Shown here piece by piece: positions 26,271-50,459 of a stretch of 50,459 bases of DNA (position 1 is its first letter; every line of letters begins with the position of its first letter). Position numbers and translations under genes: made by a program. The notes beneath the pieces are model-generated. The model made no database searches. It was given only the letters and a program-made list of their open reading frames with translations, and was not told the origin of the DNA. Source of the stretch: Phosphitispora fastidiosa (GTDB lineage Bacteria; Bacillota; Thermincolia; Thermincolales; UBA2595); contig NZ_JAHHUL010000026.1 in assembly GCF_019008365.1 (NCBI RefSeq), positions 1 through 50,459 of the forward strand, written 5' to 3'.

Positions 26271-26289
26271 ATGAAAATAAGAAGATAAT

Positions 26290-26412
26290 AACTCCGAGTT
26301 GGCATGGCCTAAGACCTTCGGGTACGGCCCGTCAACCGTTGCCGGGTAACCGGCAAAGGGTATCGCAGGAAACTGTGATGCCTCCCGTATTTGGAAAGGA
26401 GATGAATGCTGT
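26290..26412 (+). promoter_or_regulatory. Riboswitch-like leader, probably Moco type
   Basis: Compact folded leader: ACTCC near 26291 can pair with GGAG at 26398; inside are a GACC-TTCG-GGT hairpin, GCCGG-GTAA-CCGGC (26341-26354) and CGCAG-GAAA-CTGTG (26364-26377), two of them with GNRA tetraloops. The segments GCCTCCC and GGAAAGGAGATGA resemble my recollection of the conserved parts of the Moco (molybdenum cofactor) RNA motif, and the genes downstream make that cofactor. A terminator follows immediately. The identity of the ligand is an inference from context. Confidence 0.6.
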
Positions 26413-26416
26413 CACG

Positions 26417-26441
26417 ACACCCCTTTCCCAGGGGTGTTTTT
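26417..26441 (+). terminator. Intrinsic terminator of the Moco leader
   Basis: ACACCCCT pairs with AGGGGTGT around TTCCC, followed by TTTT. It lies between the folded leader and the first gene, as expected for control by transcription attenuation. Confidence 0.88.
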
Positions 26442-38394: not shown

Positions 38395-38469
38395 GCCGAA
38401 GTAGCTCAGTGGTAGAGCAACGCACTCGTAATGCGTAGGTCGAGGGTTCAACTCCCTTCTTCGGCTCCA
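38395..38469 (+). tRNA. tRNA-Thr (anticodon CGT)
   Basis: 75 bases with encoded CCA. Acceptor stem GCCGAAG/CTTCGGC, D-arm GCTCAGTGGTAGAGC, anticodon arm ACGCA-CTCGTAA-TGCGT giving anticodon CGT, and T-arm GAGGG-TTCAACT-CCCTT. The 3' 45 bases are duplicated at 40420-40464, so this tRNA is the integration site of an island. Confidence 0.97.
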
Positions 38470-40419: not shown

Positions 40420-40464
40420 CTCGTAATGCGTAGGTCGAGGGTTCAACTCTCTTCTTCGGCTCCA
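40420..40464 (+). repeat. attR-like copy of tRNA-Thr 3' end
   Basis: 45 bases matching 38425-38469 from the anticodon to CCA, with one C-to-T change in the T-stem. The 5' half of a tRNA is absent, so it is an attachment-site remnant and not a gene. Confidence 0.93.
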
Positions 40465-40638: not shown

Positions 40639-41058
40639 GTGTGCCGTTTTCTTTTATTCCTGCTGGTTTCCACGTTGTTTGTAAATGGGTGCAATGATGG
40701 CAGCGGTATAATATTTGAGGGTGAGAGCAGCCACTGGACAGCCAGCTATGTTGAGAAAATACATGAAACCGGGATAAAAAGTTTATCCGGCAAATTTAGT
40801 TACAGCAATACTGTTTCCTGGAATCTAAGTCTAAAATACAAAGGTCCAAACTTGTCAAATGTAGGGCCTGTCAAGTATTCATATAATACAGAGCATGGCG
40901 GAGGGGAGGGAGAAACCTCCCTGGACAGGAACGGATACCTTAACATAACAGGCCGCATTAGCGGAGAAGACGCAGCAATGACAAGCTGCATTGATACTAT
41001 TGCCGTAATCTTGGAATGGCATGGTATGAGTGAGCCCCTTGAGCTAACTGCCAGGTAA
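40639..41058 (+). CDS. Small lipoprotein, 139 aa
   Basis: GTG start with GGGGGG about ten bases upstream. A short signal peptide FLLFLLVSTLFVNGC ends in a lipobox Cys (VNGC), so the protein should be anchored outside. The mature part is beta-rich with a Gly-rich loop (HGGGEGETSLD) and a C-terminal ITGRISGEDAAMTSCIDTI. No family recognised. It is a single gene closed by a terminator; its role is unknown. Confidence 0.75.
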   Translation: MCRFLLFLLVSTLFVNGCNDGSGIIFEGESSHWTASYVEKIHETGIKSLSGKFSYSNTVSWNLSLKYKGPNLSNVGPVKYSYNTEHGGGEGETSLDRNGYLNITGRISGEDAAMTSCIDTIAVILEWHGMSEPLELTAR

Positions 41059-41160: not shown

Positions 41161-42570
41161 TTAAGGGGAATTAAAATCTATATTATATTTCTTTAATTTT
41201 CTCACAATGGTGGACTGATTAACCCCAAATAGCCGGGCCAACTGCCTGGTTGACTTTGAGTTTTTACATGCCTCAATGATCATCTGTTTTTCCGTTATTT
41301 CTTTGACCTCTTTTAGTGACCGTGCTTCTTTTGGAAGAACAGGCAAAATTTGGTTTCCGCAGATTTCTTCCAAAAAGGAATTTGGTAAGTCGTTTTCAGT
41401 TATAATATCCGAATTGCATATAATAACTAATCGTTCAATATAATTTTCTAATTCTCTGACATTTCCTGGCCAATTACATTTCATAATCCTGTCCATAATC
41501 GAAGGGCTTAGTTTCTTTCTCTTATGATAGCGGATGCTGAATTTATCGAGAAAATATTCCACCATAACCGGGATATCTTCCTTGCGTTCTCGTAATGGAG
41601 GGATTGTTATCGGAATAACATTAAGCCGGTAAAAGAGATCTTCTCTGAAGGAGCCTTTGGAAACTTCCTCACGGAGGTTTTTGTTAGAAGCAGTGATTAA
41701 CCTTATATCTAATTTTCTTGGGTTAAGGCCCCCGATTCGGTAGACCTCTCTATCCTGTATAACATGTAAAAGTTTTACTTGTAATTGTAAAGGCATATCT
41801 CCTATTTCATCCAGAAAAACCGTACCTGTATTGGCGTGTTCGAAATACCCGGATTTACCTTCTCTAACGGCGCCGGTAAAGGCGCCCTTGGTATAACCGA
41901 AAAGTTCTGACTCAATTAGATTTTCCGGAATAGCCCCGCAGTTTACCGAAACAAATGGATTATTCCTGCGATTACTGTTATTATGTATGAATTTTGCCAG
42001 TAAACTTTTTCCTACCCCAGATTCACCATAAATAGTTATAGTAGCTTCAGTGTACGCAACCTGATGGGCCATTTCTATTACCTTTTTTATGGTATCACTG
42101 CGCCAAATAAAGTCGTCAAGCTCTACGTTCCGAATTCTTACTATCTCTTTTTGATACCAAGAAATCATTTCTTCTGATTCTCTTAATCGTTTCTCAAGGT
42201 CACTGCAATGGGTAATATCCTTGGAAAAAGTGATTACCTTTTTTAAATTATTGTTATTGTCAAAGATGGGTATAGCTGTAGCCATTATCCTTTTGCCATT
42301 ATTTATGTTCTGAACAAAGGTTTCTTGTTTTTTGCTGTTAATGGCAGTCAGCGTTATAGATTTTGATAGAACACCGTTTTTTTCTAAGTCTTTAACATTC
42401 ATCCCAACCATGTCACGGATACCAAAGGTTATTTCAGGTGGATTGTAAACTTTTTTAATAAATCCTTTATTATCTGAAATAGTAACTTGATCAAAGGCCA
42501 AACCAATAATCAACATCAAGTCCTTTATGTCTTCAGGATCGAGGTGACTTAACTGAGATAAAACACTCAT
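41161..42570 (-). CDS. Sigma-54-dependent activator (PAS, AAA+, Fis HTH)
   Basis: 469 aa. Residues ~20-125 form a PAS-like sensor; a coiled linker follows; then the AAA+ domain with Walker A GESGVGKS, the sigma-54 contact loop GAFTGA, Walker B VFLDEIGD and the arginine region FREDLFYRLNVIPI; the C-terminus is a Fis-type helix-turn-helix (TRQLARLFGVNQSTIVRKL). It activates transcription by sigma-54 RNA polymerase in response to a ligand or signal. Divergent from a sigma-54 promoter with palindromic upstream sites, its likely target. Confidence 0.95.
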   Translation of the reverse strand: MSVLSQLSHLDPEDIKDLMLIIGLAFDQVTISDNKGFIKKVYNPPEITFGIRDMVGMNVKDLEKNGVLSKSITLTAINSKKQETFVQNINNGKRIMATAIPIFDNNNNLKKVITFSKDITHCSDLEKRLRESEEMISWYQKEIVRIRNVELDDFIWRSDTIKKVIEMAHQVAYTEATITIYGESGVGKSLLAKFIHNNSNRRNNPFVSVNCGAIPENLIESELFGYTKGAFTGAVREGKSGYFEHANTGTVFLDEIGDMPLQLQVKLLHVIQDREVYRIGGLNPRKLDIRLITASNKNLREEVSKGSFREDLFYRLNVIPITIPPLRERKEDIPVMVEYFLDKFSIRYHKRKKLSPSIMDRIMKCNWPGNVRELENYIERLVIICNSDIITENDLPNSFLEEICGNQILPVLPKEARSLKEVKEITEKQMIIEACKNSKSTRQLARLFGVNQSTIVRKLKKYNIDFNSP

Positions 42571-42635
42571 TCATTATCCACCCTTCTTATTTGATTTTTC
42601 CTCTGATAGTATTTGGTGTAATTATATGCTAAAAT

Positions 42636-42672
42636 GCATCAAGATGCAATAATGCATCTAATTATTAGATGC
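42636..42672. promoter_or_regulatory. Upstream activator sites, two palindromes
   Basis: GCATCAAGATGC (42636-42647) and GCATCTAATTATTAGATGC (42654-42672) are perfect palindromes sharing the GCATC/GATGC half-site. They lie 50-90 bases upstream of the sigma-54 promoter, the usual place for an enhancer-binding protein, and in front of the activator's own gene. Confidence 0.75.
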
Positions 42673-42723
42673 TATACTGAGACAAATATGGGATAAATCA
42701 AGCATTACCGATGGTAAAACGGC

Positions 42724-42740
42724 TTGGCATGTTTCTTGCT
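42724..42740 (+). promoter_or_regulatory. Sigma-54 (-24/-12) promoter
   Basis: TTGGCATGTTTCTTGCT has GG and GC spaced by ten bases and nearly matches TTGGCAC-N4-TTGCT. It faces the PuuE/ABC operon, whose first start codon is 180 bases downstream. The leader 42741-42920 has no gene I trust, but a 23-codon frame from ATG 42857 ends across the next start. Confidence 0.88.
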
Positions 42741-42920
42741 AATAATTTATTTAATAAATGCATTAATTAGGGCTTTATTTAGCTAAAACGATCGCCCAAT
42801 ATTAAATGGCAAAAAGAAAGGGGGAAGTTTTCGGTTTTTAGAAATCTATGGAGGTGATGTATATCGGCCCAAGATTGATGATGAAGTTTGCTAAAATCCA
42901 ATTCAGAGGTGATATAATCA

Positions 42921-43811
42921 ATGCGTGACTTAGTCGGATATAGTAACAGATTTCCAACTGTAGGTTGGCCCAATGGAGCTCGCTTAGCTATTAATATAGT
43001 TGTGAATTATGAAGAAGGGTCTGAAAGGTCGTTTGCTGCAGGTGATCCGGATCAGGAACCATTGACTGAATGGGGTACTTACCCGCTTCCCCCAGAAATC
43101 CGTAACTTGGCCATGGAGTCTATGTACGAATATGGATCACGTGCAGGTATCTGGCGCACATTACGTACCCTTGAGCAGGCTCAGGTTAAATCAACATTTT
43201 TTGCGTGTGCTGTGGCCTTTGAAAAGGCTCCTGAGGTTGCAAAAGCAGTTGTTGATGGGGGCCACGAGGTGTGCAGCCATGGATACAGGTGGGAGGAAGT
43301 TTTTCGCCTGTCAAAAGATGAAGAACGCGAGCATATCAGGCTTGCCATCGAATCATTTATCCGAACAACAGGGCAGCGTCCGAAAGGCTGGTACTGTCGT
43401 TATGGACCCAGTGTAAACACGAGACAATTGGTTGTAGAAGAAGGCGGATTCTTATATGATTCTGATGCCTACAATGATGATGTACCTTATTTTGTTGAAG
43501 TATCGGGAAAGAAGCATCTGGTGCTTCCATATACTCCGGATGTAAACGACTTCTGCTATTGGCAATCACCTGGCTTTTTAACTGCTGACCACTTTTATAC
43601 CTATTTGAAAGATACTTTTGATGTTTTATACGCTGAATCTGCAACCCATCCCAAAATGATGTCTGTTGGGCTGCATCCCAGGATTATTGGACGCCCGGGT
43701 CGGATTGGCGGGTTGCAGCGGTTTTTAGAGTATGCGAACAGATACACAGATGTCTGGTTTGCCACCCGCGCAGAAATCGCCGAATGGTGGAAGGCAAATT
43801 CCAAAGGGTAG
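42921..43811 (+). CDS. PuuE-type polysaccharide deacetylase-family hydrolase
   Basis: 296 aa with a NodB-homology fold: INIVVNYEEGSE, YEYGSRAGIWRTLRTLE, FFACAVAFEKAPEVAKAVV, GGHEVCSHGYRWEE, GWYCRYGPSVNTR, YDSDAYNDDVPYF and SVGLHPRIIGRPGR. This layout is that of PuuE-like allantoinases and cyclic-imide hydrolases rather than of cell-wall deacetylases, which have signal peptides. Substrate unknown; a ring-opening C-N hydrolase is the best guess. First gene of the sigma-54 operon, AGAGGTGAT site. Confidence 0.82.
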   Translation: MRDLVGYSNRFPTVGWPNGARLAINIVVNYEEGSERSFAAGDPDQEPLTEWGTYPLPPEIRNLAMESMYEYGSRAGIWRTLRTLEQAQVKSTFFACAVAFEKAPEVAKAVVDGGHEVCSHGYRWEEVFRLSKDEEREHIRLAIESFIRTTGQRPKGWYCRYGPSVNTRQLVVEEGGFLYDSDAYNDDVPYFVEVSGKKHLVLPYTPDVNDFCYWQSPGFLTADHFYTYLKDTFDVLYAESATHPKMMSVGLHPRIIGRPGRIGGLQRFLEYANRYTDVWFATRAEIAEWWKANSKG

Positions 43812-43869
43812 CTAGAAACAATTAAATAAGACATTAAATTAAATAAGATATTAATAGGAGGAATGGCAT

Positions 43870-45027
43870 TTGAAACGTGTACAAGTCTTTTTCCTGTTTA
43901 TGGTTTTAATGATTTTTTCCATAACTGCTGTTGCTTGCGGGGGAACGTCGACTTCTTCAAATCCCCCGGCGGATAAACCCGAAGATGCAGATGCAAAAGT
44001 GGATTTGTCCTATGTAACCGAGCAAATTGAGCAGTATAAGACTCTTCCGGAATTCAGAGCCCCAGGGGAACCCTTTGATGCCAAAGCAGTTATGAAGGGA
44101 AAAAGTATCCTAAGTATTCCCGTTTCCAGCGCTAATCCGTTCACTGAGAATATCGAGGTTGGCATGAAAAAAGTAGCAGAGGAAATCGGGTTCGAGTTCA
44201 CTGAATGGTCAAACCAGGGACAACCATCCCAGTGGGTACAGGGAATGAACCATGGTCTTAATCAAAAGTATGACCTAATTGATTTGCTTGGCGGAACCAA
44301 CCCCTCCGTACTCCAACCACAAGTTGAAGCCGCTACAAAAGCCGGGGTGAAAGTAGTTTCCACACATTTAAGTGGTTTTGAACAGGAAATACCCTATGTT
44401 ACGGAAAACCTGGGAATTGATTATAACAAGGCCGGCAGATTATTAGCAGACTGGACCATTCTCAAGACGGATGGTAAACCAAATGTACTTGTAATCAGTT
44501 CAAATGAAGTTGTATCTACAGAGTCCATCGTCAATGGAATTAAGGACGAATTCCAACAGATGTGCCCTTCCGCAAAGGTTACCTATGTCAATGTACCCAT
44601 CCCCGACTGGTCAACAAAAATTCAGTCTGAGGTTCAATCAGCGATAATCAGGGATCCTGAACTTAATTATATTGTTCCAATTTATGACAGTATGTCTCAA
44701 TTTGTAGTACCCGCAATTGAAACCACCCAATCGGCTGACCGGGTAAAAATTGCCACATTTAACGGCACACCATTTGTCCTTGATTTTATTCGTCAAGGCA
44801 AAGTAGAGATGGATATCGGCGAAAACCTTGACTGGATTAGCAGAGCAATTATGGACGCAGAAATGCGACTTATTGCCGGACTGCCTTTTGTAGATAACGA
44901 AAATATTCCACTCTACATTTGGGATGAGAGTAATATAGAGAAGGCCGGTAACCCGGCTCAGCTATCAACAGGCTACGGAGACGCATATTTAGAGGGATAT
45001 AACAAACTGTGGGGAATCTCCAAATAA
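43870..45027 (+). CDS. ABC substrate-binding lipoprotein (RbsB/sugar type)
   Basis: 385 aa. Signal peptide with lipobox ITAVAC, a short Ser/Pro/Asp linker, and a periplasmic-binding-protein type I fold (SILSIPVSSANPFTENIEVG, GLNQKYDLIDLLGG, AGVKVVSTHLSG, VLVISSNEVVSTESIVNGI). Relatives bind sugars, autoinducer-2 or purine-type ligands. Together with the next two genes it forms an importer. Starts at TTG 43870 with AGGAGG upstream. Its ligand should be the operon's substrate. Confidence 0.9.
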   Translation: MKRVQVFFLFMVLMIFSITAVACGGTSTSSNPPADKPEDADAKVDLSYVTEQIEQYKTLPEFRAPGEPFDAKAVMKGKSILSIPVSSANPFTENIEVGMKKVAEEIGFEFTEWSNQGQPSQWVQGMNHGLNQKYDLIDLLGGTNPSVLQPQVEAATKAGVKVVSTHLSGFEQEIPYVTENLGIDYNKAGRLLADWTILKTDGKPNVLVISSNEVVSTESIVNGIKDEFQQMCPSAKVTYVNVPIPDWSTKIQSEVQSAIIRDPELNYIVPIYDSMSQFVVPAIETTQSADRVKIATFNGTPFVLDFIRQGKVEMDIGENLDWISRAIMDAEMRLIAGLPFVDNENIPLYIWDESNIEKAGNPAQLSTGYGDAYLEGYNKLWGISK

Positions 45028-45051
45028 TTCATTTGAAGTAGTTAATCAAAT

Positions 45052-45091
45052 ATATGAACGTTCATATTTTGTTAAATATGAACGTTCATAT
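45052..45091. promoter_or_regulatory. Twin 16-bp palindromes, candidate operator
   Basis: ATATGAACGTTCATAT occurs twice, at 45052-45067 and 45076-45091, centres 24 bases apart. Perfect palindromes of this kind resemble TetR-type operators. They lie between the binding-protein and ATPase genes. Reading them as protein gives a false repeated N-terminus (MNVHI ... MNVHI). Confidence 0.7.
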
Positions 45092-45119
45092 AACAAATTT
45101 TAGGCGTGGGGATGATAGA

Positions 45120-46673
45120 GTGAAAGATAATGTTGATACCCTCGTAATGAAACACATTTCAAAGACTTTCGGAGGTCAACGTGCCCTGAGTGATGCTCAT
45201 ATCAATATAAAGCCAGGAGAAGTGCATGGTTTACTTGGCCAAAACGGCTGCGGAAAGTCCACTCTCATTAAGATATTAGCCGGCTACCACGCTCCGGATC
45301 CGGGTGGAAGTCTGGAAATTAATGGCCGGGTTATAAAGCTTCCTCTCCACGTTGGCGAATTTCGGAAACTTGGCATGAGCTTTGTGCATCAAGATTTGGG
45401 ACTGATACCCTCATTGAGTGTACTTGAAAACCTTCGGATAGGGGAAATAGCATCAAAAAACAGATGGAATATATCCTGGTCTAAAGAACGAAAACTTGCT
45501 AAGGAGATATTCAAGCAATTTAATCTGAATATAGATCCATCTGATAAAGTTTCAGACCTGACCCAGGTGGAACGTGCCTTATTGGCGATAGTGCGTGCAG
45601 TAAAAGAAATCCAGACTCAGGAAGCAGTACAACAATCAAATCGGGGACTGCTTGTTCTGGATGAACCCACTGTATTTTTACCAAGAATGGGAATAGACCA
45701 ACTTTTCGGGCTGGTTCGTGAAATTGCTAAAATCGGGCTAAGTGTCTTGTTTGTCTCACATGACCTGGATGAAGCCAAGGAAATAACAAACAGAATCACA
45801 ATATTGCGAGACGGACATGTAGTTAAAACTGTAGAAACCAGTCAAACAACTAAAGAGCAGCTAATTTCTGCTATTATCGGGCGCGAACTCGAAACAGTTG
45901 ATTTTAGAAACTCCATTACTGATAACAAAAAGATTGATATATTTGTGAATAACCTTTCCGGAAAAATTATCAGGGATGTATCCTTAAGCTTAAGAAAAGG
46001 TGAAATTCTGGGGCTGACCGGTTTGGTTGGGTCGGGGTTTCATGAAATACCATATCTGCTTTTCGGCGCGGATAAAGCCAGCGGTCACCTGGAAATGGAT
46101 GGTGAATCCTTCGATTTGTCGAGAATGAGTCCCAATAAAGCTATTTCGACAGGGCTCGCTTTGATTCCTGGGGATCGCCAGAACTCAGGCGGTATCGGAA
46201 CACTTTCAATACTGGATAATGTGGTTATACAAGTCATTCAAAACTACTTTAGAAAGTTAAGGTTAAATCGAAAAGACATGTATAATGCCACGCACTCCCT
46301 TTTGACTGAGTTTGATGTTCGTCCCGGTAATCCACGTTTAGATTTTCAAAATCTAAGCGGAGGTAATCAACAAAAAGCATTGCTGGCAAAATGGTTTCAA
46401 ACCAATCCTAAGATACTGCTGTTGGATGAACCAACCCAGGGTGTGGATGTAGGCGCCAGGCAGCAGCTATTTAAAATCGTCAGGGAAGCAGCCGAAAGTG
46501 GAACCTCAGTAATCTGTGCAAGTTCTGATTACGAGCAGCTAGCCACAATATGTAACAGGGTTTTGATTTTTGCTCATGGAGTTGTTGTCAGAGAGCTTAT
46601 TGGAATTGATATCACTAAGGAACGTATTACCGAACAGTGCTATAATAGCCTGGACAATGTTGTATCTTTGTGA
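45120..46673 (+). CDS. Sugar-type ABC transporter ATPase (RbsA/MglA type)
   Basis: 517 aa from GTG 45120; a frame from 45054 would translate the operator palindromes and is rejected. Two fused ATPase halves: the first has Walker A GLLGQNGCGKST and Walker B LLVLDEPTVF; the second has a degenerate Walker A (GLTGLVGSGFHEI, normal for this family), the signature LSGGNQQKALLAKWF and LLLDEPTQGVDVGAR. It powers uptake together with the binding protein and permease. Confidence 0.93.
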   Translation: MKDNVDTLVMKHISKTFGGQRALSDAHINIKPGEVHGLLGQNGCGKSTLIKILAGYHAPDPGGSLEINGRVIKLPLHVGEFRKLGMSFVHQDLGLIPSLSVLENLRIGEIASKNRWNISWSKERKLAKEIFKQFNLNIDPSDKVSDLTQVERALLAIVRAVKEIQTQEAVQQSNRGLLVLDEPTVFLPRMGIDQLFGLVREIAKIGLSVLFVSHDLDEAKEITNRITILRDGHVVKTVETSQTTKEQLISAIIGRELETVDFRNSITDNKKIDIFVNNLSGKIIRDVSLSLRKGEILGLTGLVGSGFHEIPYLLFGADKASGHLEMDGESFDLSRMSPNKAISTGLALIPGDRQNSGGIGTLSILDNVVIQVIQNYFRKLRLNRKDMYNATHSLLTEFDVRPGNPRLDFQNLSGGNQQKALLAKWFQTNPKILLLDEPTQGVDVGARQQLFKIVREAAESGTSVICASSDYEQLATICNRVLIFAHGVVVRELIGIDITKERITEQCYNSLDNVVSL

Positions 46674-46689
46674 CAGGAGGAATAACAGA

Positions 46690-47736
46690 ATGGTAGAAAA
46701 AAGTATGAAACAGACGAATGACGAGCCAGTTATTAATAAAGAATGCAAAACCCCAAATGCTAAAAAAAGTAATGTGATAACTTCGGCTATTGAGCGTTAT
46801 GCAATCTTAGGTGCTACAGGTATTGTTATTATTGTATTCGGAATCCTAGCTCCTTCAACATTTCTCACCGGGATGAACTTTGCTACTATTTTGGGTTCAC
46901 AGGCAGTTCTTGTTGTGTTGACTTTAGGTTTGCTAATTCCAATGACGAGCGGAGACATGGATTTATCTATTGCTAGTGTGCTTACTCTTTCAGCGATGAT
47001 GCTTGGGGTTTTAAATGCCCAGCTTCATGTGCCAATTGTTGTAGCAATCCTGGCGGCACTTGCCATGGGGGTTTTGGTTGGTGTGGTAAACGGTGCCTTC
47101 ACGATTTTATTTGATATTGATCCCTTTATTGTTACTTTAGGTGTTGGAACAGTGTTGAATGGGATTGTTTTATTAATAAGTGATTCAATGACCATTAGTG
47201 GTATTTCACCGGGCTTAGTTAATCTAGTGGTGGTGAAAAGGCTTTTGGGAATACCTTTAGAGTTTTATTACGGTTTGATTTTGACTGCATTTGTATGGTA
47301 TCTATATGATTTCACTTCATTTGGACGGCGTATTCTTTTTGTCGGTCGGGGGCGGAATGTTGCCCGGCTGAGCGGCATACGCGTCAATAAGCTGCGTTGG
47401 ATTAACTTAATGTTATCTGGTCTTTTCAGCGCCTTTGCCGGAATACTCTACGCCGGTACAACCGGCGCAGCAGATCCTACATCAGGATTATCCTATATGC
47501 TGCCTGCCTTTGCAGGGGTTTTCCTTGGCTCAACTTCAATTGTTCCGGGCCGGTTCAATCCTTGGGGTTCATTTTTTGCAGTGTACTTTCTGGTCATCGG
47601 AATAACAGGCCTTACAATTTTAGGGCTCCAGACATATGTCCAGCATCTCTTTTATGGAGGAGCGCTAATTATTGCGGTCGTATTCTCTCATATTGCTCGC
47701 AAGCGTCAAGAACAAAAAACGAAGATCAACGGCTAA
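46690..47736 (+). CDS. Sugar-type ABC permease (RbsC type)
   Basis: 348 aa from ATG 46690, which has AGGAGG nine bases upstream (a frame from 46570 overlaps the ATPase gene and is not used). About eight to ten hydrophobic helices, with the family stretch LIPMTSGDMDLSIASVLTLS, FIVTLGVGTVLNGIVLLIS, GRNVARLSGIRVNKLRW and GSTSIVPGRFNPWGS. Forms the membrane channel with the ATPase and binding protein. Confidence 0.93.
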   Translation: MVEKSMKQTNDEPVINKECKTPNAKKSNVITSAIERYAILGATGIVIIVFGILAPSTFLTGMNFATILGSQAVLVVLTLGLLIPMTSGDMDLSIASVLTLSAMMLGVLNAQLHVPIVVAILAALAMGVLVGVVNGAFTILFDIDPFIVTLGVGTVLNGIVLLISDSMTISGISPGLVNLVVVKRLLGIPLEFYYGLILTAFVWYLYDFTSFGRRILFVGRGRNVARLSGIRVNKLRWINLMLSGLFSAFAGILYAGTTGAADPTSGLSYMLPAFAGVFLGSTSIVPGRFNPWGSFFAVYFLVIGITGLTILGLQTYVQHLFYGGALIIAVVFSHIARKRQEQKTKING

Positions 47737-47773
47737 AGTACTAATTGAAAAATAACTTAAATGGAGGTAAGTT

Positions 47774-48136
47774 ATGAGTAAGGCTAAAGTTATTTCCATG
47801 GCTAGCGTTCCCACTAAGAGGCTCGCAAACGATAGTTGGATTAAATTGTTAATAACCAGAGAAACTGTACAAGATAATCATGCATCAGTGGGTTTTTCAT
47901 GTTTTACTCCTGGAACTGTTACCAAACCGATTGCACACAAGGTCGAAGAATTTATGATGGTTGTTAAGGGACAGGGAGAACTCCGTCTAAATGATGAATG
48001 CATCCCGTTTAAGGAAAACGATGCCATTTTTGTCCCGCCGGACATATGGCATTGGGTAGCCAATACCGGGGATGAAGATATAATAATGGTATTTGGTTTT
48101 GCATATTATGAATACCCACCGACTCAGAGCTGCTAA
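47774..48136 (+). CDS. Single-domain cupin protein
   Basis: 120 aa small beta-barrel. Cupin motifs: HKVEEFMMVVKGQGELRLND (His and Glu ligands) and VPPDIWHWVANTG (second His). ATG with TGGAGGTAAGTT upstream. Such cupins act as isomerases, dioxygenases or lyases on small sugars or acids, or as metal-dependent sensors. It belongs to the operon and may process the imported compound. Confidence 0.85.
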   Translation: MSKAKVISMASVPTKRLANDSWIKLLITRETVQDNHASVGFSCFTPGTVTKPIAHKVEEFMMVVKGQGELRLNDECIPFKENDAIFVPPDIWHWVANTGDEDIIMVFGFAYYEYPPTQSC

Positions 48137-48186
48137 TATTTGACTAAAAGTCGGCAAGTAAATTATTCATATTAGGGGGCGATGCC

Positions 48187-49203
48187 GTGGACTTAAAAGA
48201 CATCAGAACAAAGGCACGGGAAAAGTTGAAAGGTTTTTGCCGGGTTTGTCCGGCATGTGACGGCAAAGCCTGTGCCGGTGAAGTCCCGGGAATGGGAGGG
48301 GTTGGCACTGGGGCAGGATTTCAGGTTAATCTGGAGGCTTTGGCAAAATATAAGTTAGCTTTACGTACAATGCATGGCACTATGGAACCGGATTTATCAA
48401 CCAGTTTATTTAATAAGACAATAAGTTTCCCGATATTAGCGGCGCCTATGACTGGAACACCTTATAATATGGGAGGAGCGCTAAGTGAAAGAGAGTTTAT
48501 TGGAACTGTTATTTCTGGGGCCAGGCAGTCAGGGACAATTGGAATGTCGGGAGACGGGGCAGACCCAAGCATGTATAATTCCGGAGTGGATGCAATTAAA
48601 ACTGAAAACGGCTGGGGAATTCCTTTCATTAAGCCCCGCTCAAATGACGAAATAAGACAACGTATTAAACTGGCTGAAGAAGCGGGTGCTTTAGCCATTG
48701 GCATCGATATTGACGGGGCCGGATTGATAACAATGGCTCTGCAGAACCAGCCGGTGGGACCCAAAACAGAGGCAGAACTTTACAGTATAGTTAAGATGAC
48801 GAAACTTCCGTTTATTATTAAGGGTATTATGACAGCAGATGAAGCAAAAATCGCGATGAATGTCGGGGCTGCCGCAATTGTGGTATCAAATCATGGCGGC
48901 AGAATATTGGATCATACTCAGGGAGTGGCTCAGATGCTGCCTGAAATAGCCGAAACCGTTAAAGATGAACTAACTATTCTGGCTGATGGCGGAGTAAGGT
49001 ACGGGGTCGATGTACTAAAATTGATAGCGCTTGGAGCAGATGCTGTGCTTATTGGTCGACCGCTGGTTACGGGAGCTTTTGGCGGAGGTATTGACGGTAT
49101 CAAGGTGGTTATGAAAAAAATGGTCAATGAATTAAAACAGGCGATGATACTCACAGGCTGCAATAGAATTGAAGATATTAATCAAAATATAATTGCCGGT
49201 TAA
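48187..49203 (+). CDS. FMN-dependent alpha-hydroxy-acid oxidase/dehydrogenase
   Basis: 338 aa from a GTG. A TIM barrel with FMN-dh family elements: FPILAAPMTGTPYN, GALAIGIDIDGAG, LPFIIKGIMTADEAKIAMN, the active-site VVSNHGGRILDHTQG and ILADGGVRYGVDVLKLI with ADAVLIGRPL. The N-terminus carries CRVCPACDGKACAGE, a Cys-rich start common in clostridial members and absent from classic lactate or glycolate oxidases. It probably oxidises a 2-hydroxy acid made from the imported substrate. Last gene of the operon. Confidence 0.88.
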   Translation: MDLKDIRTKAREKLKGFCRVCPACDGKACAGEVPGMGGVGTGAGFQVNLEALAKYKLALRTMHGTMEPDLSTSLFNKTISFPILAAPMTGTPYNMGGALSEREFIGTVISGARQSGTIGMSGDGADPSMYNSGVDAIKTENGWGIPFIKPRSNDEIRQRIKLAEEAGALAIGIDIDGAGLITMALQNQPVGPKTEAELYSIVKMTKLPFIIKGIMTADEAKIAMNVGAAAIVVSNHGGRILDHTQGVAQMLPEIAETVKDELTILADGGVRYGVDVLKLIALGADAVLIGRPLVTGAFGGGIDGIKVVMKKMVNELKQAMILTGCNRIEDINQNIIAG

Positions 49204-49211
49204 GTTTAAGC

Positions 49212-49241
49212 AAAAATGGTCTTAGCGGACCATTTTTTTTT
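49212..49241 (+). terminator. Terminator of the sigma-54 operon
   Basis: AAAAATGGTC and GACCATTTTT around TTAGCG, then a T-run of nine. The group II intron begins at the base after the T-run. Confidence 0.93.
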
Positions 49242-50459
49242 GTTCGTCCGGCATGTGTACCGGGCCGATGGGTTGAAAGAAACCCTATCACCTAACCAGC
49301 GGGAAGATAACCCGTAAGCAAGGGCGTCACTGGCTAACGGTGTGGTCTGAAGGAAGCTGAAGGGGGAGTCTGGAACATAGCGGAAGTGAACCGAGGTTGG
49401 CTCTCCAGATGGGTAACCCTGCAAGAAATGGGAAAGCCCGAAAGCTGGAAAATCTGGGGAGTTAGGACGGATGGGTTCAGACTCAGGCAAGTACATTTAA
49501 CCGGAGAAGCCCGGCATCATCCCTCAGTGAAGGGTAGGCTCGAACAAGTGGAAACACAAGGGAGAGGCGAAGTGGTGTGGGGTGGCAGATGAGTACGTAG
49601 TAGTGATAAACTCCCGGCCTGCGAAAGCTGGCAACAGACTGGAGGACAAAACCGGGAGGACACTGCATTCAATTGCAGTGGGGTACAACCAGCCAAAAGC
49701 AGTTGTACTTGCGAAGGGACGAAGGTAAATCAAAGTATGCAACTAAGGAACAGAGCGATGGGACAAGAAGATAACTGAGGATGAAAGGCCGAAGGGAACG
49801 GCCCAATCGGGGGTGACGAACCTGCTGAAGGGTGCGTCCGCTTAGTCAGAGTAAGGTGACAGGAAAGGTAAGATTGCCAGAGAGCTAGAGACGCCTGGAG
49901 AGTTACAAGAAGGAACTGACGCGAAATCGTGAAGAACCGTGGAAGCATACGGCATAAATTTGCAAGAGGAACTAAACCGACTTCATCACCAACTGAAAAC
50001 CGGCATTTACGAACCAGACCCAGTGTTAAGAGTGGAAATACCAAAAGCTGACGGAACTAAACGTCCGCTTGGAATACCCACTGTAAGAGACCGAATAGTT
50101 CAGCAAGCTCTTCTTAACATTCTACAACCTATCTTTGAACCCGACTTTCATCCATCAAGCTATGGATACAGACCGGGACGCTCCTGTCATCAGGCAGTGG
50201 CAAAGGCGGAAATGTTCATAAACAAATATGGCCTATGCCATGTAGTGGATATGGACCTGTCCAAATGCTTTGACCGGCTGGACCATGAATTAATCTTAAA
50301 GGGAATTAACCGAAAAATTAGTGCCGGCAGTATCTTGAAGCTAGTCAAGAAGTTCTTGACAGCGGGAGTAATGAAAGACGGGGTGTGGGAGGAAACAGAC
50401 CTTGGAAGCCCTCAGGGGGGAGTCATTTCTCCATTAATTTCCAATATTTACCTAGATGA
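49242..50459 (+). mobile_element. Group II intron, 5' part, runs off window
   Basis: Starts GTTCGTCCGGCATG, which resembles the GUGYG 5' end of bacterial group II introns, right after a transcription terminator. The next 690 bases are the ribozyme domains (for example GTGTGGTCTGAAGGAAGCTG), with no gene; the short frames there are noise. A reverse transcriptase gene follows. Domains V and VI and the 3' end lie beyond the window. Confidence 0.92.
49939..50459 (+). CDS. ltrA: Group II intron RT/maturase, N-terminal part
   Basis: Partial: 173 codons to the window end. From GTG 49939 it reads VEAYGINLQEELNRLHHQLK, then VEIPKADGTKRPLGIPTVRD, SSYGYRPGRSCHQAVAKAE, HVVDMDLSKCFDRLDHELIL and LGSPQGGVISPLISNIYLD, i.e. 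reverse transcriptase blocks 0 to 4; the YADD block is outside. Upstream in the same frame a TGA at 49930-49932 interrupts a homologous-looking stretch (GTDAKS-stop-RTVEAYG), so the usual N-terminus seems to be lost or mutated. The intron may no longer be mobile on its own. Confidence 0.88.
   Translation, partial: MEAYGINLQEELNRLHHQLKTGIYEPDPVLRVEIPKADGTKRPLGIPTVRDRIVQQALLNILQPIFEPDFHPSSYGYRPGRSCHQAVAKAEMFINKYGLCHVVDMDLSKCFDRLDHELILKGINRKISAGSILKLVKKFLTAGVMKDGVWEETDLGSPQGGVISPLISNIYLD

Follow-up and report, generated by a model that had tools for sequence, protein, structure and literature searches.

A candidate operon for uptake and ring opening of a small cyclic ureide or imide in Phosphitispora fastidiosa

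What compound is handled by an operon that combines an allantoinase-like hydrolase with an importer of the ribose type? The question is raised by a 50,459-nucleotide stretch of DNA from Phosphitispora fastidiosa (contig NZ_JAHHUL010000026.1; hereafter the window), in which a sigma-54 activator gene is followed by genes for a PuuE-like hydrolase, a three-component transporter, a cupin and a flavin mononucleotide (FMN)-dependent dehydrogenase-family protein. The reading that we favour, with moderate confidence, is that the operon was acquired horizontally and serves to bring in a small cyclic ureide or imide (a hydantoin-, allantoin- or dihydropyrimidine-like compound) and to open its ring by hydrolysis, the compound being a source of nitrogen and/or carbon.

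Anatomy of the operon

The analysis of the window located the following features, with all seven named genes, including the activator gene, found intact.

41161-42570, minus strand: sigma-54 enhancer-binding activator with a weak PAS domain, an AAA+ domain with GAFTGA and a helix-turn-helix (Pfam PF00158, PF25601, PF18024)
42635-42648, no strand assigned: palindrome TGCATCAAGATGCA, putative activator site
42654-42672, no strand assigned: palindrome GCATCTAATTATTAGATGC, putative activator site
42725-42740, plus strand: -24/-12 promoter TGGCATGTTTCTTGCT, 12 of 12 consensus positions
42921-43811, plus strand: PuuE-like amidohydrolase of the polysaccharide-deacetylase fold (TIGR03212, 358.5 bits)
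43870-45027, plus strand: lipoprotein solute-binding protein, RbsB fold, TTG start (PF13407)
45051-45092, no strand assigned: perfect 19-bp inverted repeat with a 4-nucleotide loop between the binding-protein and ATPase genes, also readable as two copies of the palindrome ATATGAACGTTCATAT
45120-46673, plus strand: two-domain ATP-binding cassette (ABC) ATPase of the RbsA/XylG kind, GTG start (PF00005, two stretches)
46690-47736, plus strand: permease of the RbsC kind (PF02653)
47774-48136, plus strand: single-domain cupin (PF07883)
48187-49203, plus strand: FMN-dependent dehydrogenase-family (FMN_dh) protein with an N-terminal C-x2-C-x2-C-x4-C motif (PF01070)
49212-49237, plus strand: intrinsic terminator closing the operon, an 11-bp stem followed by a T run

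The hydrolase gene comes first after the promoter and is followed in turn by those for the binding protein, ATPase, permease, cupin and FMN_dh protein, whereas the activator gene is transcribed divergently. Neighbouring genes of the series are 16 to 92 nucleotides apart, and every start has a plausible ribosome-binding site ahead of it. The promoter, described as near-perfect in the original prediction, is in fact perfect; it is the sole perfect match to TGGCAYRN4TTGCW within the 50 kb window, and approximately 0.1 would be expected by chance. Together with the GAFTGA motif of the activator (at residue 229; Walker A is also present) it provides both hallmarks of a sigma-54-dependent operon. 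The best NCBIfam model for the activator was PrdR, at 413.6 bits and below its cut-off of 795. Both palindromes lie 52 to 90 nucleotides upstream of the promoter, and shuffling of the spacer in which they lie produced a perfect palindrome with arms of 9 in 1.7% of cases (a chance of 0.017).

Judged from these signals, the genes from the activator to the cupin and FMN_dh protein form one predicted sigma-54-controlled unit, the transcript of which probably ends at the terminator at 49212-49237. All parts that had been claimed for such a unit (activator, palindromes, promoter, hydrolase, importer, cupin and FMN gene) are present. The stretch originally delimited started at 42636, and the activator gene lies outside that start; in addition, the ATPase start had been placed at ATG 45054 and was corrected here, probably to GTG 45120. 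The inverted repeat at 45051-45092 (RNA fold -26.2 kcal/mol, z -6.1) had no match in any of the other loci examined. By shielding the upstream messenger RNA, such a hairpin may determine how much binding protein is made relative to the transporter; alternatively, it may be a pair of repressor sites.

The hydrolase and the transporter

Against the PuuE allantoinase model TIGR03212 the hydrolase did not reach the curated cut-off of 424.6 bits with its 358.5, and four other tested members of its clade were also below it, at 355-358 bits. Its nearest relatives, at no more than 74% identity, come from SAR324, Terriglobia, Proteobacteria and Pseudonocardia, and in the tree this clade is set apart from bona fide PuuE by a split with a support of 0.997. 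The residues N29-Y30-E31-E32, H120-G121 and R123-W124 are invariant in the clade and in PuuE alike; PuuE-type motifs thus stand in place of the deacetylase metal-binding motifs, with NYEE at that site. E125, V127, F128, C159, S164 and T282 are fixed otherwise in the clade than in the three PuuE sequences compared.

The description of this protein as a PuuE-type hydrolase therefore holds as far as overall likeness and shared motifs are concerned, but a PuuE ortholog is ruled out by the sub-cut-off score and the separate clade. PuuE itself (TIGR03212; PDB 3CL6, 1Z7A) is a small-ring C-N hydrolase of the same fold family that aligns over the full length (324 bits) and shares NYEE and SHGxRW, whereas the operon hydrolase has its own fixed residues and lies outside any uric-acid gene cluster. 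The latter probably acts as PuuE does, by splitting a C-N bond of a small ring, but allantoin need not be its substrate. The polysaccharide-deacetylase fold is also shared with HP0310 (3QBU) and with two enzymes of cyclic imide chemistry, HxnM of Aspergillus and the cyclic imide hydrolase CIH of Pseudomonas putida (PMC9304392, PMC3084791). HP0310, unlike PuuE, binds metal at its active site, and assignment of the operon hydrolase to the HP0310/HxnM type by nearest solved structure was rejected, since the match to 3QBU is weak (68 bits against 324 for PuuE).

The claim of a complete RbsABC-type importer was confirmed: binding protein, two-domain ATPase and permease are all encoded in the one operon. 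The ATPase shows 51-55% identity to the ATPases of the same module in a metagenome-assembled genome labelled Proteobacteria (L012) and in Pseudonocardia (L060), and the permease shows 50-61% identity in these two and in a member of the Terriglobia (L006). The binding protein has a relative of 60% identity in L006. The binding protein and the permease match exactly the same seven of 72,556 plasmids, indicating that they belong to one discrete transporter family.

The predicted structure of the binding protein (mean predicted local distance difference test score, pLDDT, 77; predicted template modelling score 0.79) compares with RbsB at a VIA Z of ~25. Alignment to 1DBP revealed replacement of most RbsB ribose contacts, six in all (D89 by H, R90 by L, R141 by I, N190 by Y, D215 by N and Q235 by E), for which we used what we take to be the ribose-contacting residues of the Escherichia coli protein. 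At the places of the RbsB contacts N89-P90-F91, Y272-D273, N298-G299 and G317-E318 are invariant in five family members from several phyla. Ribose, one of the ligands originally proposed, is rejected as a substrate on account of the replaced contacts. The structural neighbours are generic sugar binders only, so that no ligand can be read from them. Overall, the transporter resembles the RbsABC ribose importer in its three-gene architecture and RbsB fold, but differs from it in the replaced ribose contacts and in the ureide and pyrimidine enzymes that neighbour its family elsewhere.

Conservation of the module and origin of the insertion

The core of the module (PuuE-like gene, transporter and often cupin) is kept in L006, L012 and L060, the last with a PuuE-cupin fusion, and also in Shinella (L086 and its near copy L092) and Salipiger (L087). 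The survey of this transporter family covered 13 loci (L006, L012, two in L060, L086, L087, L088, L089, L137, L138, L139, L140 and L150). A ring-opening or ureide-hydrolysing gene was found within ~8 kb at 10 of the 13, which is good, if unquantified, evidence for a link between the family and ring-opening enzymes. The genes concerned encode PuuE-like proteins, carbamoylase, ureidoglycolate lyase, hydantoinase-like and N-carbamoylsarcosine-amidase-like proteins, and RutA with RutB-like proteins and amidases. RutA/RutB-like genes and amidases are present at the Palleronia and Rhizobium loci, and L006, L012 and L060 carry N-carbamoylsarcosine-amidase-like hydrolases beside the module. Enzymes of the Rut pyrimidine, hydantoinase/carbamoylase and N-carbamoylsarcosine pathways adjoin the same transporter family in other bacteria, although the operon described here encodes no such enzyme. 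Because the same core adjoins ureide and pyrimidine enzymes in other phyla, the earlier proposal of a substrate of the cyclic amide or ureide type is supported.

Relatives of the hydrolase in Proteobacteria and Actinomycetota keep comparable company. Ureidoglycolate lyase accompanies them in Skermanella, Salipiger, Thioclava, Aureimonas and Klebsiella michiganensis, with a hydantoinase-type gene also present in Aureimonas and K. michiganensis. A Pseudomonas relative lies beside a class V aminotransferase-like protein, an RpiR-type regulator and a dihydropyrimidinase, in a neighbourhood other than that of the uric-acid cluster which holds PuuE, and in one alphaproteobacterial metagenome-assembled genome a relative stands directly behind a molybdenum hydroxylase (xanthine-dehydrogenase-type) subunit. 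Neighbours of this wider family point to small cyclic ureides and imides, perhaps partly of nucleoside origin. On a Pseudarthrobacter plasmid (L065, 2401-14923) a PuuE-like gene was seen among two nucleoside hydrolases, an M24-family protein, short-chain dehydrogenases/reductases, a PfkB kinase and a glycerate kinase, company which suggests a nucleoside-derived ureide. Marinibacterium (L081, 9020-10888) has two tandem PuuE-like genes, the products of which are 55% and 56% identical to the hydrolase of the window, and behind them an M20-type amidohydrolase. One Polaromonas plasmid is reported to carry a polysaccharide deacetylase, a dihydroorotase/dihydropyrimidinase-like protein, ureidoglycolate lyase and cyanuric acid hydrolase, without a pathway being given (PMC6015842). 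The parts of the operon are all of known kinds; the literature search found no description of this gene combination and no substrate for these versions of transporter and hydrolase.

In two congeners (G005 and G004) the site of the operon is empty, the tRNA-Thr region leading straight into the next conserved gene. The alignment of G005 with the window ends at 41058 and is followed by that gene; nothing from 41161 onwards aligns. In a sample of 398 genomes from across the phylum, the genome that holds the window was the only one with the PuuE-like gene, and likewise the only one with the binding-protein gene; both the PuuE-like and the FMN gene are missing from the eight relatives of the family examined. 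The empty sites and the occurrence in one of 398 genomes indicate horizontal acquisition, and the whole unit is best explained as an insertion gained in this way. Its right end is beyond the window, which ends inside a group II intron.

This intron, a match to Rfam group-II-D1D4-3, occupies 49240-50459, directly behind the operon terminator, and the beginning of its reverse transcriptase gene is included. Class C group II introns are known to sit directly behind intrinsic terminators. Elsewhere in the window, a 45-nucleotide repeat (98%) of the tRNA-Thr(CGT) 3′ end at 38425-38469 and 40420-40464 flanks ~2 kb with KilA-N and RhuM genes; this stretch, absent from the congener G005, looks like a small integrated element with two attachment sites. 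A Moco RNA riboswitch (molybdenum/tungsten cofactor, 78 bits) was observed at 26280-26417, upstream of molybdenum cofactor genes.

The proposed pathway and its alternatives

The cupin shows 43% identity to that of L012, located between the PuuE-like and ATPase genes, and 33% to the PuuE-cupin fusion of Pseudonocardia. Since it is kept with the module elsewhere, its role would be tied to that of the hydrolase. Ureidoglycine aminohydrolase (TIGR03214) was rejected as an identity for this protein at 21 bits against a cut-off of 200.

The FMN_dh protein shares with the glycolate/lactate oxidase family (PF01070) the FMN-binding half of the barrel and the catalytic Lys, His, Arg and Asp; every one of the 30 proteins compared has these residues (K212, H236, R239 and D267). 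It differs in an N-terminal four-cysteine motif and in having no counterpart of the two substrate tyrosines: no Tyr precedes residue 55 and none is present in PFIKPR, the places of Tyr24 and Tyr129 of glycolate oxidase, with weak alignment in the middle part. C18, C21, C24 and C29 together with the motif PGMGG are kept in 29 of the 30 proteins, i.e. those covering that part. The structure predicted from the single sequence (mean pLDDT 35) was too poor to use. The protein could plausibly be a flavin dehydrogenase that binds a metal or an Fe-S centre. The earlier name of FMN hydroxy-acid oxidase agrees with the catalytic residues, but is made doubtful by the absent tyrosines and by the wide stand-alone distribution of the family. 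Some records, at least, label members with CxxCxxCxxxxC and PGMGG (L093-L121) as alpha-hydroxy-acid oxidizing protein.

The proposed sequence of events would begin with the PAS-containing activator sensing the compound or a metabolic cue, binding the two palindromes and driving the -24/-12 promoter. The RbsABC-type transporter would bring the compound into the cell and the PuuE-like enzyme would open the ring at a C-N bond; the cupin may have either the substrate or the opened (ureido) product as its target, and the FMN protein may oxidise a later intermediate.

Several observations weigh against this proposal. The L006 and L012 loci and both loci of L060 were picked via the hydrolase and are not independent; the nine remaining transporter loci, six of which have ring-opening or ureide-hydrolysing genes, still speak for the proposal. 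Three of the 13 (L089, L137 and L139) are without a ring-opening gene, L089 having a flavin reductase. Joint conservation, the lack of which had been named earlier as a refutation, was borne out for the PuuE-like gene, transporter and cupin, but not for the activator and the FMN gene, which were not found with the module elsewhere. Those structural relatives of the binding protein that have a named ligand bind sugars or sugar-like signals. For processing of the ring-opened product, no member of the isochorismatase family was found in the genome (controls were positive), and the genome search with the carbamoylase model gave sub-threshold hits only. This accords with the earlier remark that known allantoin enzymes other than the PuuE-like one are lacking: none is encoded in the operon, and neither an isochorismatase-family hydrolase nor an above-cut-off carbamoylase was found in the genome.

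The substrate could be allantoin itself, in which case the hydrolase would be an allantoinase that has diverged and the operon would serve to take up allantoin and open its ring. Invariance of NYEE, SHGxRW and many other PuuE residues in both groups, and the ureidoglycolate lyase adjoining relatives in Salipiger, Thioclava, Aureimonas and Klebsiella, would fit. We nevertheless consider it unlikely, given the 358 of the required 424.6 bits (similar in the other clade members tested), the well-supported split from bona fide PuuE, the six positions fixed otherwise than in three PuuE sequences, and the location of the Pseudomonas gene away from the uric-acid cluster. A sugar operon, in which RbsABC would import an amino sugar or sugar acid for the hydrolase to deacylate, the cupin to isomerise and the FMN enzyme to oxidise, is less probable still. 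It is the explanation to which the RbsB fold, the sugar-binding nearest solved relatives and the Pfam name polysaccharide deacetylase would lead, but six ribose contacts are replaced, the hydrolase resembles PuuE and has NYEE where deacetylases have their metal-binding motif, and the neighbours of the module elsewhere are mostly ureide and pyrimidine enzymes.

A further explanation concerns the FMN gene only and is compatible with cyclic ureide or imide breakdown by the other genes: it may be a separate, generic redox gene at the operon end with no part in the pathway, to which we give slightly less than an even chance. Its family, at 45-68% identity, is represented in 29% of the phylum genomes sampled (87 of 299), against one of 398 for the PuuE-like gene; no FMN_dh counterpart was found near other copies of the module among the loci compared, and in Acetoanaerobium a relative lies among unrelated housekeeping genes. 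On the other hand, the gene is located 50 nucleotides behind the cupin gene and ahead of the shared terminator, with no terminator between and no perfect sigma-54 promoter of its own, and its absence from all eight family relatives examined indicates that it probably arrived with the island.

Going beyond uptake and ring opening of a cyclic ureide or imide, we suggest tentatively, and with some doubt, that the transporter represents a new RbsABC-type branch for cyclic ureides rather than sugars and the hydrolase a second, non-allantoinase branch of PuuE; here, in a probably anaerobic bacterium, both would be controlled by a sigma-54 activator, as would an FMN dehydrogenase with four cysteines, and the ureide would be broken down by an undescribed route. 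The widespread four-cysteine FMN family carries the name of hydroxy-acid oxidase without the expected substrate residues. The operon also provides an example, open to testing, of an ABC transporter of the sugar type that would have been taken over for ureides, and a substrate would be given to a mobile module of several phyla, the hydrolase of which is often annotated as allantoinase and the transporter as a sugar importer.

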